From Acidimicrobiales bacterium (GTDB lineage Bacteria; Actinomycetota; Acidimicrobiia; Acidimicrobiales; AC-9): a stretch of DNA of 35,253 nt. The translations under genes were made by a program, and so were the position numbers. The stretch covers positions 1 through 35,253 of the forward strand of contig DASXCO010000077.1 in NCBI GenBank assembly GCA_036491125.1, in the 5' to 3' direction. The notes beneath the pieces were generated by a model, which was not told the DNA's origin, made no database searches, and was given only the letters and a program-made list of their open reading frames with translations. Shown one piece after another: positions 22,178 to 30,641 of this stretch. Numbering within the stretch: the first letter of the stretch is position 1; the number at the start of each line of letters is the position of its first letter.

Positions 22178-23086
22178 CTACCCAGTCTCGAGCATTCTCC
22201 GGTCCCAGCCACCGAGCTCGGCCGCTGCCTCATACGTGCTCTGCAAGAAGGCCAGTAGCATCTCGTCGGGGTGGTGCGCCACCCGCACCGCTTCATACGG
22301 CAGCAGGAACTCGCCAAGGCGGGCTTCGTAGAAGGCAGCCTCGGGCTTGACGTGCCACTCGGCGAAGCCCTCGGGCTCGGGATAGGCGTAGGCATAAAAG
22401 GAGCCCTCGGCGCTCCCGCCCGGCCAGAAGCCGCAGCTACTGAGCTCATGGCTGTAGGCCAACTCCTGGACCCAGTCAGGGCAATTCGGCACTCCACCGG
22501 GGTGCCTGGGTGCCCGCCGGCCCGAGAACCGCGTCGCCGCGAGGTCAGCCGCGCCCCAGAAGAAGTGCACGGGGCTGGCCTTGCCCACGAAGCGGCCCCG
22601 GAATAGAGAGAAGACCCGGTGAGCCTGAAGAAGAGCGAGCCAGAAGCGCTGAGCGGCGGCGGCATCATAGGACCGATGCTCTTCGTCCTCCGCGAAGGGT
22701 ACGGTCTCAGGCAACTCGACCGGCCGCGCCAGGATGCTCACCGGTGTGTCGAGCGCATCTAGGGCTGCCATGGTCGCGGCGTAAAAGTCGGCCACCGAGC
22801 GAGGCTCGAGGAGGACCCTTCCGAACTTCCCGTCGGAGGTTCGCAGGTGAAGGATGTGGTCCACGAAGTCGAACTCAGCCTCGAAGCCGCGGCCTCCGGT
22901 GTGCATGAGCGAAGTCGTCAGCCCACGGGCCGACACATAGAGAGGGACCTGCCACCAGTGGTTGACCATGGGCTCCAGGGCCAGCCGGATCTTGCCGACG
23001 ATCTGGGTCCACAGCTGCAGAGTGTCGCGGGTCTCCTCCCACTCCGACAGAGTGATCCTGGGCCACGGCGACTCGTGGTTCGTCAC
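22178..23086 (-). CDS. DUF5996 family protein
   Basis: A 302-residue protein of the uncharacterised DUF5996 family. Recognisable stretches are WPRITLSEWEETRDTLQLWTQIVGKIRLA at the N-terminus, NHWWQVPLYVSARGLTTS, FDFVDHILHLRTSDG, and the aromatic block FFWGAADLAATRFSGR in the middle. No catalytic motif of a known enzyme class, signal peptide or membrane segment is visible. It lies between a pirin and a patatin-like gene on the same strand. I cannot give it a function. Confidence 0.78.
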   Translation of the reverse strand: MTNHESPWPRITLSEWEETRDTLQLWTQIVGKIRLALEPMVNHWWQVPLYVSARGLTTSLMHTGGRGFEAEFDFVDHILHLRTSDGKFGRVLLEPRSVADFYAATMAALDALDTPVSILARPVELPETVPFAEDEEHRSYDAAAAQRFWLALLQAHRVFSLFRGRFVGKASPVHFFWGAADLAATRFSGRRAPRHPGGVPNCPDWVQELAYSHELSSCGFWPGGSAEGSFYAYAYPEPEGFAEWHVKPEAAFYEARLGEFLLPYEAVRVAHHPDEMLLAFLQSTYEAAAELGGWDRRMLETG

Positions 23087-25856: not shown

Positions 25857-26930
25857 TTAGGAGGTGTCTTCGTCCACAACCTCCCGCAGGTTGGAGAAGA
25901 AGAGCCGCGCGGTCTCATCCCACGTGGGAAGGGACTGTGCTCGTCGGCGGGCGCTCGACGCGAGCCGGAGGCGGTAGGCGTCGTCGAGCGCTAGCTCTTG
26001 CATTGCCGACGCCAGAGCCTCGACGTCGCCGGGGGGCACGAGGACGCCCTGTTGCCCGTCCTCTGCGAGGTTGAGGAGATTTCCAGCCCGCCATCCGACC
26101 ACGGGAAGTCCTGCCGCCATGGCTTCGCCGTAGACGGTCCCGTACGGCTCCTTCCAACTAGGGAGGACGAACACGTCTGCGGCGGCGTACAACGCCGCCA
26201 CTCTCTCCTTGGTCACCGGGCCATGAACGACCACCCTTCCGGTCAAGTCGGCATCGCCCAGCCGGGTCATGATGCGTGCCGCGTAGGGGCGATCTTTGGC
26301 CTGATCGCCAACCAGGTGCAGGATGCCGGCCTCGGGCGGCAACCGGGCATAGGCGTCCAGAAGCGACAGGATCCCCTTGCGCGCGACCCAGTTCCCCACG
26401 CACAGGAAAGCAACGCGCCCTTCGGAGCGAAGCTCCGGGGTCGCCCCTTCAGGCGCGAGAGCGACGTCTCGACCCGGCGGCACGACCCTGATGCGATCCC
26501 GCGCAAACCCGCTCGATTCGAGCTGATCGGCCAAGGCCTGGCTCGCTGTGAGCAGGCGCCGCGCCCTACGGTAGGTCGAGCGGTCGAGAGCAGCCCGGAC
26601 GCGAGTCGCCAACGGGCTGTGGTCGATCCCACCGGGCGGCTGGTGAAGAATCGCCACCATCGGCAAGTCCAGCCGGTGGGTGGCGAGCCACGGCGCGAGC
26701 AGGCTCGCAACGATGCTGTCGACGACGATTACGTCCACACCTCGGCTCCGGGCCCGAGCGATGACGTCGCCCGCGCGCAGAGCGGAGGCCGGGAAGAAGC
26801 CGTCGGCAAAGGATACGAACCGGATCTTCGCTCCATGTCCCGGTGCGACATCGGCCAGCCGGCGGTGATAGAGGTAACCGCCGGTCACCTGGTCCGGCGA
26901 GCCAAGGGTCACAAGGGAGACGGCGACCAT
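25857..26930 (-). CDS. Glycosyltransferase (GT4-like, GT-B fold)
   Basis: A 357-residue retaining-type glycosyltransferase. The C-terminal domain has VGNWVARKGILSLLDAYARL, VVVHGPVTKERVAALYAAADVFVLPS, and the E-x7-E donor motif in EPYGTVYGEAMAAGLPVV. The N-terminus starts with a G-rich acceptor loop (VTLGSPDQVTGGY), so the ATG is well placed although no ribosome-binding site is clear. There is no membrane segment. It is the last gene of a minus-strand unit (MDR dehydrogenase, pterin-synthase homologue, glycosyltransferase) and probably glycosylates the product of that cluster. Cyanobacterial pterin glucosyltransferases are a known precedent for sugar transfer to pterins. Confidence 0.9.
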   Translation of the reverse strand: MVAVSLVTLGSPDQVTGGYLYHRRLADVAPGHGAKIRFVSFADGFFPASALRAGDVIARARSRGVDVIVVDSIVASLLAPWLATHRLDLPMVAILHQPPGGIDHSPLATRVRAALDRSTYRRARRLLTASQALADQLESSGFARDRIRVVPPGRDVALAPEGATPELRSEGRVAFLCVGNWVARKGILSLLDAYARLPPEAGILHLVGDQAKDRPYAARIMTRLGDADLTGRVVVHGPVTKERVAALYAAADVFVLPSWKEPYGTVYGEAMAAGLPVVGWRAGNLLNLAEDGQQGVLVPPGDVEALASAMQELALDDAYRLRLASSARRRAQSLPTWDETARLFFSNLREVVDEDTS

Positions 26931-26949
26931 GCGGCTAGGACGAGCTGGT

Positions 26950-27348
26950 CTAGTCGAGTGAGCCGACCGTGGCCCGGTAGCCGCCGAAGGCCACCGGTGA
27001 TTCCCAGACCCTCACCGTCAGCGTCTCTCCTCCGGCCGACCGAACGGCTGCTGCGATGGCGCCGTGCACCCAACGGGCGAAGATCTCCACCGTCACCGCC
27101 TCGGCGTCAACCGGTCGGATCGTTTCCAGATCCCGGTCGCGTACGCGGTCGATGATGTCGCTGAGGGCTCCATCGAGGAGGTCGAGGTCGCACACCATGC
27201 CCTCGTCGCCGAGAGTGGTACGTTCGATGAGCAGCTCTATCCGGTAGTCGTGGGCGTGGAGCTGACCCTCCGGGCCCTCCACCCCAGGCATCAGGTGGAG
27301 AGCACGTACTTCCTTCGCCGTACCGACCTGGTAGGTGGCCTCATCCAT
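26950..27348 (-). CDS. 6-pyruvoyl-tetrahydropterin synthase / QueD homologue with a degenerate active site
   Basis: A 132-residue T-fold protein. The family core LHAHDYRIELLIE and GMVCDLDLL is clear, and three histidines (H18, H31, H33) match the zinc ligands. The pterin-anchoring glutamate is kept as E116 in VWESP. The catalytic cysteine expected before the HxH motif is missing (residues 19-30 have none), and the Asp-His dyad region reads RDRDLE without His. Known PTPS or QueD chemistry is therefore unlikely, but binding of a pterin-like ligand is likely. A Streptomyces coelicolor PTPS homologue (SCO6650) is also described as lacking the catalytic triad. The start (MDEATYQ) overlaps the MDR stop by 8 bases; the longer open frame upstream is antisense shadow. 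Confidence 0.82.
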   Translation of the reverse strand: MDEATYQVGTAKEVRALHLMPGVEGPEGQLHAHDYRIELLIERTTLGDEGMVCDLDLLDGALSDIIDRVRDRDLETIRPVDAEAVTVEIFARWVHGAIAAAVRSAGGETLTVRVWESPVAFGGYRATVGSLD

Positions 27349-28363
27349 GACGCAGCGCCACGTGGAGGAGCTCATCGTCCTGGCGGTCGATGGCGTCGAA
27401 GGCCTCTTGTGCCTGGCCCAGCGGGAACTCGTGTGTTGCCAGTCGTTCAAGAGGCAGCTCCGCCAGAAGGTCACGGGTGACGGCCCGCCGCCGGGCGAGC
27501 GTCCACCGTGAACCCAGGCGGGCCGGAATGGTGGAGACCTGCGTGCTGCGCAATGAGAGCCGACGGCGGTGGAATGCACCACCCAAGGGAAGGCTGACCT
27601 CCTTGGTTCCGTACCAGGACGCCACCAGGGCACAGCCCTCGTGCGCCAAGAGCGCCAGCCCCCCAGCCAGTGCCGCAGGCTGCCCGCTGAGCTCGACCAG
27701 CAGCGAAACGCCGCCTCCGCCGGTGCAGTCATCGACCTCGTTGGCAAGCTGATCGGGTCCGACGGCCCGAATGCCGAGGGACTCTGCCGCTCGTCGTCGC
27801 CATGCCTTCGGCTCCGCTGCGATGACCAACGCTCCCGACCGCTGGAGCAGGCTGGCGGTCAGGATGCCGACCACACCCAGTCCGACCACGACGACATGCT
27901 CACGCAGCCTCTCACCCGCATCCAGGCTGATCTGCAGAGCAGTCTCGACGAGGGGAAACAGAGTGGCGACCCTGGCGTCGTCATTGCCGTCCAAGACGAT
28001 GACCTCGTCGTCTCCCAGGACAAACCGGTCCTGGTGCGGATGGAGGGCAACCACCAGCGTGCCTTCAGGCAGTCGTCCCCGCGACCGCTCCACGCGGCCG
28101 GCGCAGCTGTAGCCATAACGGAAGGGGTAACGGAAGGTGCCGGCAAGCGGGCCGATCGTCTCGTCAAGAGGTAGCTCCGGGTCCAGTTGACCACGAAAGG
28201 CCAGCATCTCGGTACCGGCGCTGATACCCGAGTAGTCCGTCCGGACGAGGACCTGCCCCTGGTCAAGATCTGTGCTCAAGGGTACTTCAACCACCTCGAC
28301 CCGCTTCGGGGCGACAAAATACAGCGCCTGCGCCTTCACCGATTCACCTGTCGATCCCTGCAC
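27341..28363 (-). CDS. MDR-family dehydrogenase (zinc-ligand-poor, BchC-like)
   Basis: A 340-residue medium-chain dehydrogenase. The N-terminal catalytic domain has TDYSGISAGTEMLAFRG where classical alcohol dehydrogenases carry the zinc-binding cysteine, so catalytic zinc is probably absent. The Rossmann domain is visible in VVVGLGVVGILTASLL (GxGxxG). This shape is like the bacteriochlorophyllide dehydrogenase BchC branch, which oxidises a side-chain alcohol on a heterocycle. Start options are GTG 28363, and GTG 28339 (VKAQALYF) with AGGTGA just before it; the second matches the family N-terminus better. It heads the minus-strand unit, facing the cyclohydrolase-reductase fusion gene. Confidence 0.85.
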   Translation of the reverse strand: MQGSTGESVKAQALYFVAPKRVEVVEVPLSTDLDQGQVLVRTDYSGISAGTEMLAFRGQLDPELPLDETIGPLAGTFRYPFRYGYSCAGRVERSRGRLPEGTLVVALHPHQDRFVLGDDEVIVLDGNDDARVATLFPLVETALQISLDAGERLREHVVVVGLGVVGILTASLLQRSGALVIAAEPKAWRRRAAESLGIRAVGPDQLANEVDDCTGGGGVSLLVELSGQPAALAGGLALLAHEGCALVASWYGTKEVSLPLGGAFHRRRLSLRSTQVSTIPARLGSRWTLARRRAVTRDLLAELPLERLATHEFPLGQAQEAFDAIDRQDDELLHVALRHG

Positions 28364-28372
28364 CTCACGAGC

Positions 28373-28378
28373 TATCCT
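28373..28378 (+). promoter_or_regulatory. Putative -10 box of the cyclohydrolase-reductase fusion gene
   Basis: TATCCT lies eight bases before the ATG at 28387, the same arrangement as the other leaderless starts in this window. No good -35 box is seen at 17-18 bases. The whole divergent region is only 23-47 bases long, so both directions must share control. Confidence 0.35.
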
Positions 28379-28386
28379 GCCTGCTC

Positions 28387-29775
28387 ATGGCCGCAAACCC
28401 TATTCGGTCGAAGACGGCGGGGAGCGACGGGGCGGTTCGTCTCGCAGGCAAACCATTGCTGGTGGCCAGGGTCGCCATGCCGACGTCCTACGGCACCTTC
28501 GACGCCCGAGCTTACGAATGTCCGTCTGGATCCATCTACCTGGCTTTGCTCAAGGGCGACGTCGCCGGCATGTCCTCGGTGGTGACGAGGCTGCACTCCG
28601 AGTGCCTGACCGGGGACACCCTGGGTTCGTTGCGCTGCGAGTGTGGCATCCAGCTGCGGCTGGCCATGCGGACCATCGCTGCCGCTGACCGCGGGCTGCT
28701 CTTGTACGCCACGGGCCACGAAGGCCGTGGTGTCGGCCTTGTCAACAAGCTCCGTGCCTACGTGGAGCAGGACAACGGTGCCGACACGATCGATGCCAAC
28801 GTCCGCCTTGGTCTCGCCGTGGACGATCGTGACTACGCCGATGGCGCCTCGGTCATCAAGGCGCTCGACGTGCGTTCGATCCGCCTGCTCACGAACAACC
28901 CCGCCAAAGTGGACGGCCTCCGCGCCGCCGACATCGAGGTTGCCGATGTCGCACCTTTGGCCACGGCTGCCCACGCCCGCAATCTCTCGTATCTACGGGC
29001 CAAGGAACATCGCCTGGGCCACCGTCGCCCCACGGGTGCAGCCGCCGATGAGGGCCCCGATCACGAGGCGATCGACACCAGTGATCTCCTGGGCCAGGTC
29101 TCGCCGCCCGCCGACCGCCCCTACGTCGTGCTGAAGTACGCCCAGACCATCGATGGCCGGATCGCCACCCGAACTGGCGACTCCAAATGGATAAGCGGCG
29201 ATTCAGAGAGGCGGATCTCCCATGCCCTACGCGCCGCCTGCGACGCCGTCCTCGTCGGGGTCGGCACCGTCATCCAGGACGATCCTCAGCTGACCGTTCG
29301 CATGGTGCCCGGTGTCTCGCCTCGCCGCATAGTCCTCGACTCCACCCTCCGCGTCCCGCTAACGGCAAAGATCCTCGAGGCAGATGCACCGACGACTATC
29401 CTCTCCACTGACCGTTCGGGCCGCGAGCTCCGCTCCTTGCTGCAAGCCCGCAGCATCAAGGTTTGTCTCGTCGATCCTGGCCCGGACGGAGTCGAGCTCA
29501 GGGCAGGCTTGGCCGCGCTGCGCGACGAAGGGGTGGAATCGCTCCTCGTCGAAGGCGGCGCAAAGGTGATCACATCGATGTTGGCGGCCAGGGTTGTCGA
29601 TCGTCTGATTGTCGGAGTTGCTCCGACGATCATGGGTCGGGGCACCGAATCCGTCGGAGCGTTGGGGGTCGACCGGGTCATCGACGGCATCCGGCTGACG
29701 GACCGGCGTGTGCATACGCTGCCCGACGACATCCTGCTCTCCTGGTCGGTCCAGCAAACAAGCCCTCGCCAGTGA
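28387..29775 (+). CDS. GTP cyclohydrolase II fused to RibD-type reductase domain
   Basis: A 462-residue two-domain protein. Residues about 25-215 are GTP cyclohydrolase II: zinc cysteines C73, C84 and C86 (HSECLTGDTLGSLRCEC), EGRGVGLVNKLRAY with the catalytic Tyr125, and D146/R148 in DDRDY, all matching E. coli RibA. Residues about 245-458 are the RibD C-terminal reductase fold (VVLKYAQTIDGRIATRTG, then LLVEGGAKV). The deaminase domain of RibD and any RibB domain are absent. It would open the GTP imidazole ring and reduce the ribose of the pyrimidine product, as in archaeal riboflavin synthesis, or reduce a pterin-like intermediate. With no ribE/ribH nearby, a dedicated role in this cluster is more likely than vitamin supply. 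Confidence 0.9.
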   Translation: MAANPIRSKTAGSDGAVRLAGKPLLVARVAMPTSYGTFDARAYECPSGSIYLALLKGDVAGMSSVVTRLHSECLTGDTLGSLRCECGIQLRLAMRTIAAADRGLLLYATGHEGRGVGLVNKLRAYVEQDNGADTIDANVRLGLAVDDRDYADGASVIKALDVRSIRLLTNNPAKVDGLRAADIEVADVAPLATAAHARNLSYLRAKEHRLGHRRPTGAAADEGPDHEAIDTSDLLGQVSPPADRPYVVLKYAQTIDGRIATRTGDSKWISGDSERRISHALRAACDAVLVGVGTVIQDDPQLTVRMVPGVSPRRIVLDSTLRVPLTAKILEADAPTTILSTDRSGRELRSLLQARSIKVCLVDPGPDGVELRAGLAALRDEGVESLLVEGGAKVITSMLAARVVDRLIVGVAPTIMGRGTESVGALGVDRVIDGIRLTDRRVHTLPDDILLSWSVQQTSPRQ

Positions 29776-30641
29776 GCCCGACCGAGCTACTTGATTCTCT
29801 ATCCGCGGCGGAGCGCCGAGCAGCAAGTCACCGCAGACGGTTCGCCGCGCATCCTCGTAGGGCGCTGCGTCTCTTCATGCATCGTGTCACCGGACCGGCC
29901 GAGGTTGAGTGCAGCCTCTTCACGGGTCAGCGGATGCGAGTCGTGCTGCCGGAGATCGTTGGAGCCGATATCTACCGGCGCTCCTACATCGAGCCGAGCT
30001 TGACCCGGGTGCTGCTCGACCATCTCCGCCCCGGCATGACGTTCGTCGACGTAGGGGCCCACTACGGCTACTACTCCATCGTGGCCAGCGAGGCAGTGGG
30101 GTCGCAGGGCCACGTCCTGGCGTTCGAGCCTGCTCCACGTACGTTCCAGGTGTTGTCGAGGAATGTGGGGCGGCTCGAAAACGTGACGGCTCACTCTCTG
30201 GCCGTGGCCTCGGAAAGTGGCACGAGCGATCTCCTTGATTTTGGCTCTTGTCACTCTGCTCTCAACACCTTGATGGGGAGTGCCAGGGTGCCGGAGGCGG
30301 AGCGCCGACGACTGCGCGGCACTACCTACCGCGTCCCTTGCGTAACGCTCGATGAGTTTCTGCTAGCAGCCGGTTTGATACCAGATATCGTCAAGCTGGA
30401 CGCCGAGGGCTCGGAGTTGTCGATCTTGCGGGGGATGCGCAGGATTCTCTCGGAGGGCAGCCCGATGGTCACGGTCGAGACTGGCGATTACGAAGGCATG
30501 CTGTCGCCAGCTACGACGGCGAGCGTCGACTTCTTGGACGCCTTTGGCTACCGGTGCTTCGAGTACTCGAATGGATTGCGCCCGCACGGCCGTCGGTCCA
30601 GATATGGCTACGACAACCTGTACTTCGTCAAGGATACGTAG
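29772..30641 (+). CDS. FkbM family SAM-dependent methyltransferase
   Basis: A 289-residue FkbM-type O-methyltransferase. The SAM-binding loop TFVDVGAHYGYYSIVAS, the acidic strand VLAFEPAPRTFQVLSRN, and the family signature IVKLDAEGSELSILRGM are all present. The GTG start lies inside the stop of the cyclohydrolase fusion gene (GTGA), a strong sign of a common function. FkbM enzymes methylate hydroxyls of sugars and secondary metabolites, so it may methylate the glycosylated product of this cluster. It converges with the SDR at 30679. Confidence 0.9.
   Translation: MSPTELLDSLSAAERRAASHRRRFAAHPRRALRLFMHRVTGPAEVECSLFTGQRMRVVLPEIVGADIYRRSYIEPSLTRVLLDHLRPGMTFVDVGAHYGYYSIVASEAVGSQGHVLAFEPAPRTFQVLSRNVGRLENVTAHSLAVASESGTSDLLDFGSCHSALNTLMGSARVPEAERRRLRGTTYRVPCVTLDEFLLAAGLIPDIVKLDAEGSELSILRGMRRILSEGSPMVTVETGDYEGMLSPATTASVDFLDAFGYRCFEYSNGLRPHGRRSRYGYDNLYFVKDT

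Follow-up and report, generated by a model that had tools for sequence, protein, structure and literature searches.

Five genes at positions 25857-30641 of a contig from an Acidimicrobiales bacterium (GenBank assembly GCA_036491125.1, contig DASXCO010000077.1) probably represent, on balance and in actinobacterial form, a widespread and uncharacterised pathway whose starting point is GTP and whose product is not riboflavin. The whole stretch of 35,253 nucleotides that was analysed is referred to as the window and its genome as G000; other G-numbers denote other genomes and L-numbers denote loci. A Pfam scan of the window proteins placed all five families above their cut-offs, confirming the families and coordinates named in the original prediction, which had been made from the letters of the window alone. 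The features are as follows.

25857-26930, minus strand: GT4-family glycosyltransferase, 357 amino acids (Pfam PF13692, 101 bits; PF00534)
26950-27348, minus strand: PTPS/QueD-fold protein of type I, 132 amino acids (PF01242, 65.6 bits)
27341-28363, minus strand: MDR dehydrogenase (PF00107, 46.5 bits)
28364-28386, no strand: very short intergenic region between the divergent units (from the open reading frame coordinates; divergent layout likewise in G002, G076 and G051)
28387-29775, plus strand: GTP cyclohydrolase II (GCHII)-RibD_C reductase fusion, 462 amino acids, in one frame (GTP_cyclohydro2, 178 bits; RibD_C, 173 bits)
28468-28950, plus strand: GCHII domain of the fusion, with zinc ligands Cys73, Cys84 and Cys86 and switch residue Tyr125 (E. 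coli Tyr105)
29119-29739, plus strand: RibD_C reductase domain of the fusion, without a deaminase domain (Pfam; best PDB match 6p8c)
29772-30641, plus strand: FkbM-family methyltransferase, 289 amino acids (PF05050, 68 bits)

The genes form two compact divergent units, with MDR, PTPS and GT4 on the minus strand and the fusion and FkbM genes on the plus strand. They are as tightly packed as had been claimed: the PTPS and GT4 genes are separated by 19 bases, PTPS and MDR overlap by 8 bases, and the GTG start of the FkbM gene overlaps the fusion stop codon. Between the divergent units lie 23 bases, or about 47 should MDR begin at the GTG beside its relatives' ATG; a start at 28339 is likely. The PTPS gene itself spans 26950-27348, and the longer open reading frame found there was over-extended. 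What had been described as a GTP cyclohydrolase II-RibD fusion is indeed fused to the RibD reductase domain, and the RibD deaminase domain is absent.

The grouping of these genes was found to be conserved. When G000 and 98 other genomes were searched at an MDR threshold of E 1e-30, MDR was present in five, G000 and four others. In three of those four (G002, G076 and G051) it lay beside PTPS and GCHII-RibD_C genes, as in the window, and the GCHII-RibD_C fusion was conserved in the same three; FkbM orthologues were likewise adjacent in G002 (73%) and at L062 (55%). An alignment of MDR alone was then used to scan 84,980 species genomes and gave 80 loci; 63 of these had flanks of 3 kb or more on either side, and their partners were counted with separate domain queries. 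A PTPS homologue lay within 2.5 kb of MDR at 59 of these 63 loci, a linkage that is more than chance. Within 8 kb of MDR were found GT4 (60 loci), RibD_C (51), GCHII (49), a class I methyltransferase (43), a CDP-alcohol phosphatidyltransferase (42), the flippase-like LPG_synthase_TM (31), FkbM (24) and creatininase (11); earlier counts made with family models from the same loci were nearly equal.

The loci came from Actinomycetota, Chloroflexi/Thermomicrobia, Spirochaetes, alpha- and gammaproteobacteria, a Rhodothermaceae metagenome-assembled genome (MAG) and haloarchaea. Co-occurrence of the families in relatives, on which the original prediction had staked itself, was thus strong and far wider than the actinobacteria, and its suggestion that a related orphan pathway may be widespread is borne out by the bacterial phyla and haloarchaea in which the MDR-only scan located the cluster. 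Among 397 genomes drawn from the phylum, 48 had an MDR match at E ≤ 1e-40, a figure that includes some weaker, non-cluster relatives; two such weaker relatives, L197 and L199, lay outside the cluster and had no cluster partners.

The strongest evidence for the first step, the opening of GTP, is that non-homologous enzymes with the same or a next-door product occupy the same place in different lineages. In the bacterial clusters examined, GCHII carried the three zinc cysteines and had Tyr as its switch residue, except in six Streptomyces-like clusters, which had Met there and also a creatininase-family protein. From its residues, the Tyr-type GCHII of the window is predicted to form 2,5-diamino-6-ribosylamino-4(3H)-pyrimidinone 5'-phosphate (APy). 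SCO6655 of Streptomyces coelicolor reportedly has Met120 and goes no further than FAPy, the formylated product, and its Met120Tyr variant is said to restore APy (Spoonamore et al. 2006). ArfB is the archaeal FAPy deformylase; the one creatininase-family protein scanned, from a Streptomyces-like genome, matched the ArfB model weakly (37 bits against a cut-off of 180), and the MftE model scored higher. A proposed rule that creatininase tracks the Met-type GCHII was true for the six Streptomyces-like clusters and was rejected when it failed in Halomonas.

Neither GCHII nor RibD_C was found near nine haloarchaeal loci, and the two haloarchaeal genomes searched had no GCHII and one RibD_C each. The archaeal route already contains the intermediate 2,5-diamino-6-ribosyl(ribityl)aminopyrimidinone, and these results are consistent with haloarchaeal clusters drawing on it. 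GCH III is the archaeal FAPy-forming cyclohydrolase. In Natrarchaeobaculum a GCH III gene (293 bits) overlaps the cluster MDR by 4 bases, with neither PTPS nor GT4 annotated beside it, and at Halovenus L078 one (284 bits) directly follows MDR-PTPS-GT4-methyltransferase. On the Haloarcula plasmid pNG700, creatininase and CDP-alcohol transferase genes lie near MDR and GT4.

The Streptomyces-like clusters also bear on two S. coelicolor genes that the original prediction had named, SCO6655 and SCO6650. The type II PTPS subfamily profile matched SCO6650 (PDB 3d7j) at E 3e-68. Six genomes of a single actinobacterial family, 7-11 Mb in size and apparently Streptomyces, share the order CDP-alcohol transferase, MDR-PTPS-GT4-methyltransferase-flippase, creatininase, GCHII, with no conservation outside these eight genes. 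The span from PTPS to GCHII is six genes, like that from SCO6650 to SCO6655, and SCO6648-SCO6655 is therefore presumably the same cluster; the identities of SCO6648-6649 and SCO6651-6654 are assigned from this gene order. Both the subfamily membership of SCO6650 and the gene order thus bear out the suggested link. The window and SCO6648-SCO6655 would have in common the PTPS subfamily and an MDR-PTPS-GT4 core linked to a GTP cyclohydrolase. They differ in that the window has a type I PTPS (ExxxHxH), a Tyr-type GCHII fused to RibD_C, and FkbM, and in Pfam scans lacks creatininase, CDP-alcohol transferase and flippase-like genes.

A role other than riboflavin synthesis is well supported. The fusion does carry the GCHII zinc residues C73, C84 and C86 and the Y125 of a riboflavin-pathway enzyme. 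Pfam scans of the window revealed no further rib or fol genes, in agreement with the claim that ribE, ribH and folate genes are lacking nearby, and no deaminase, RibB, RibE or RibH partner. A fusion that was the only ribA of its genome would have counted against the original prediction, but it is not the only one: G000 has a complete RibD/RibE/RibBA/RibH set, including a second GCHII, on contig C59. In the spirochaete G107 (L068, single-chromosome record CP070696, a MAG) the one GCHII and the one RibD_C both lie in the cluster, and no match to RibH (lumazine synthase), RibB (DHBP synthase) or RibE (riboflavin synthase) was found in this genome, although these families were found in all or most control genomes. 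The cluster GCHII and RibD_C of G107 therefore cannot serve riboflavin synthesis. In Desertimonas flava (G102, L066) the cluster GCHII was the only one found; RibE was found, RibB and RibH were not, which points to an incomplete draft or to an unusual riboflavin synthesis in this species.

The description of the 132-residue product as a pterin-binding T-fold protein was correct as to the PTPS family and can be refined: it is a PTPS homologue without the catalytic Cys and the Asp-His dyad. Across 22 diverse rows of type I PTPS, H18, E27, H31, H33, D54, E88 and E116 were invariant and the dyad was absent. H18, H31 and H33 form the zinc His triad, Glu27 replaces the catalytic Cys and Glu116 is the pterin anchor; in the PTPS/QueD family, the C-terminal Glu anchors the 2-amino-4-oxo edge of the ring. 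Type I is carried by the window, most actinobacterial MAGs, Chloroflexi, spirochaetes and haloarchaea, and type II, with the motif GPAQxxHGA, by the Streptomyces-like, Rhizobiaceae and Halomonas clusters. The AF2 model of the window protein (pLDDT 94.8) returned SCO6650 (3d7j) first in Foldseek, and a profile search likewise favoured SCO6650 (E 6e-20) over QueD (E 3e-10).

The window motif, ExxxHxH, matches none of the published PTPS motifs, CxxxHGH (I), CxxxxxHGH (II) and ExxHGH (III) (PMC5041015). As in PTPS-III and the COG0720 subfamilies (PMC2229834, PMC5041015), Glu stands in for the catalytic Cys beside the zinc His motif, and in Plasmodium a Cys-to-Glu change at this site alters the chemistry (PMC2229834). 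Identity with PTPS-III was rejected, since the spacing is one residue longer than in ExxHGH and the middle residue of HxH is mostly Ala or Ser; the window type may be the unassigned PTPS-V.

The MDR protein retains the GxGxxG cofactor motif and lacks the usual catalytic-zinc ligands. Over 100 rows the ligand positions were Ser/Gly and Tyr85 (SGISxGTE, YGYxxxG), with Tyr85 at the GHE His; the window protein thus has neither the catalytic Cys nor the GHE His of zinc-dependent MDR alcohol dehydrogenases. Its closest NCBIfam model, BchC, scored well below cut-off. The best PDB match of the fused RibD_C domain, 6p8c, is a 2,5-diamino-6-ribosylaminopyrimidinone phosphate reductase, which acts on the 2-amino compound. 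An archaeal-type cluster reductase, towards which the PDB list leans, finds no support in the RibD_C tree, which does not place it with the archaeal rows.

In the pathway that we propose, the GCHII domain would first open GTP to APy, a step that is well supported. The fused RibD_C would likely reduce the ribosyl to a ribityl group without deamination, so that the 2-amino-4-oxo edge would be kept; this reduction would not be universal within the clusters. Given the families of the next two enzymes, MDR may then oxidise a hydroxyl of the side chain, after which the zinc T-fold protein, with Glu116 on the 2-amino-4-oxo edge, may use zinc and Glu27 to enolise the chain or close it into a ring; closure onto the 5-amino group, for instance, would yield a dihydropterin. 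Finally, GT4 would add a sugar and FkbM would methylate it; a sugar on the product is likely because GT4 is near-universal in the cluster. The product would thus be a glycosylated, usually methylated, pterin-like compound. In other lineages the cluster also holds genes for a second methyltransferase, for a CDP-alcohol transferase and for a flippase-like protein. The latter two genes were not visible in the window to the original prediction; they suggest that the product is lipid-linked and exported in several lineages. The pathway originally proposed, from GTP to a reduced, glycosylated and methylated pyrimidine or pterin, is supported in outline by the co-occurrence and the separate rib operon, while the choice of ring and the attached groups are what we infer.

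Several observations weigh against this scheme. No cluster-type CDP-alcohol transferase was matched in G000 at E 1e-5; a lipid anchor is therefore unlikely in the lineage of the window, and lipid anchoring there was not retained. RibD_C is missing from the 8 kb around MDR in the Streptomyces-like clusters, and the reduction may therefore be unlinked or dispensable. One zinc His is gone from type II PTPS, and in the RibD_C tree the cluster reductases stand apart from the sampled bacterial RibD rows as well as from the archaeal ones. The Halomonas group (L098-L120), in which Tyr-type GCHII and creatininase occur together, is an exception without explanation in our scheme.

The alternative that survives best leaves the ring unmodified: the product would be a glycosylated ribityl-diaminopyrimidine without a pteridine ring, bound or epimerised by the T-fold protein. 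The loss of the catalytic Cys and the dyad from PTPS, the further loss of a zinc His in type II and the lack in the cluster of a second-ring carbon donor enzyme such as RibB all fit this reading, but the strict conservation of Glu27 and the zinc His residues in type I, in bacteria and haloarchaea alike, argues for catalysis and leaves it a doubtful one. A GTP cyclohydrolase I-independent pterin route, in which MDR would oxidise C2' of the ribitylaminopyrimidine and T-fold closure would yield 7,8-dihydroneopterin phosphate for folate or biopterin-like use, is unlikely. By established chemistry the C2' ketone should equal the Amadori intermediate of GTP cyclohydrolase I, and the T-fold protein retains its zinc triad and pterin-anchor Glu; against this, FolE (GTP cyclohydrolase I) is present in G000, on C246, and in 11 of the 12 other cluster genomes searched, so that a bypass is unneeded, and the presence of a glycosyltransferase and of methyltransferases suggests a specialised product.

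That the fusion merely backs up the housekeeping rib operon in supplying riboflavin or a flavin precursor, beside unrelated neighbours, is highly improbable: both its domains are homologous to riboflavin enzymes and D. flava has its GCHII in the cluster only, yet has RibE, but G107 keeps the cluster enzymes without RibB, RibE and RibH, G000 has a full rib operon, the fusion has no deaminase domain, and the linkage of MDR, PTPS and GT4 extends over several phyla. A queuosine or deazapurine branch can practically be dismissed, since QueD, although the best-scoring NCBIfam name for the PTPS homologue, reached only 36.6 of the required 89.25 bits, the CxxxHGH motif is absent, the profile search favoured SCO6650, G000 has a separate QueD-like PTPS homologue on C135 and no QueE or QueC family was named in the Pfam scans of the window.

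Returning to the GTP-started, glycosylated pterin-like product, a broader form of this proposal is tentative and rather less probable than not. It would comprise a new class of such compounds in bacteria and haloarchaea, membrane-linked in many lineages; a dehydrogenase without zinc and a T-fold cyclase would make them from a ribitylaminopyrimidine, and non-homologous enzymes would stand in for the GTP cyclohydrolase in different lineages.

Glycosylated pterins such as cyanopterin, limipterin and solfapterin would be alike in bearing a sugar on a GTP-derived pterin, if the proposed product is right; to our knowledge they derive from GTP cyclohydrolase I products, whereas the first enzyme here is GCHII or GCH III. 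The toxoflavin and pseudoiodinine clusters are secondary pathways started by a dedicated GCHII and RibD homologue, with methyltransferases (PMC9911603), and resemble the window in these respects. They also have WD-repeat and sulphatase-modifying-factor proteins, neither of which was found in the Pfam scans of the window, which instead has PTPS, MDR and GT4 and no deaminase. Single S. coelicolor proteins have already been characterised and GCHII-started secondary pathways are known to exist (PMC9911603); a literature search found no paper describing the cluster or its product.

The flanks of the five genes are unrelated to them, with catalase and pirin genes on one side and SDR and LuxR-type regulator genes on the other; farther to the left are fatty-acid/CoA genes. 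At 22178-23086 the window encodes a full-length DUF5996 protein (444 bits), from a family of unknown function, and no tRNA or Rfam family was found in the window. Among the relatives, L053 (PKRH01000116.1, G076:C18) has the actinobacterial cluster form in a MAG named 'Thermoanaerobacterales bacterium'; it groups in the window's own order and the NCBI name looks wrong. A second GT4 gene in opposite orientation lies between PTPS and the first GT4 at L033:8198-9283, L044, L054-L062 and L065; it is frequent in actinobacterial clusters, and the window lost it or never had it. A sulfatase/alkaline-phosphatase-superfamily-like protein of about 550 amino acids recurrently adjoins the cluster in several phyla (L188:6827-8611, L106:4429-6072, L090:4114-5784, L203:7017-7886), the Haloarcula copy being shorter and weaker. 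The family of open reading frames labelled CDPOH2 was rejected as a CDP-alcohol transferase, being a weak sulfatase-superfamily match. At L202, L203, L204 and L205, large plasmids of haloarchaea and Agrobacterium (pAt, pNG700) carry the MDR gene together with some or all of the cluster, which hints that it spreads horizontally.

In routine annotation, homologues of GCHII and PTPS are labelled as genes of riboflavin or queuosine synthesis; here they would be part of a separate pathway. Its carriers include Streptomyces-like, Agrobacterium, Rhizobium, Halomonas and Haloarcula genomes, some with plasmid-borne copies. If the proposal is true, it would explain, in a concrete way that is open to test, why S. 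coelicolor has a FAPy-forming GCHII and an inactive-looking PTPS, and would point to a metabolite class reachable by comparative metabolomics.

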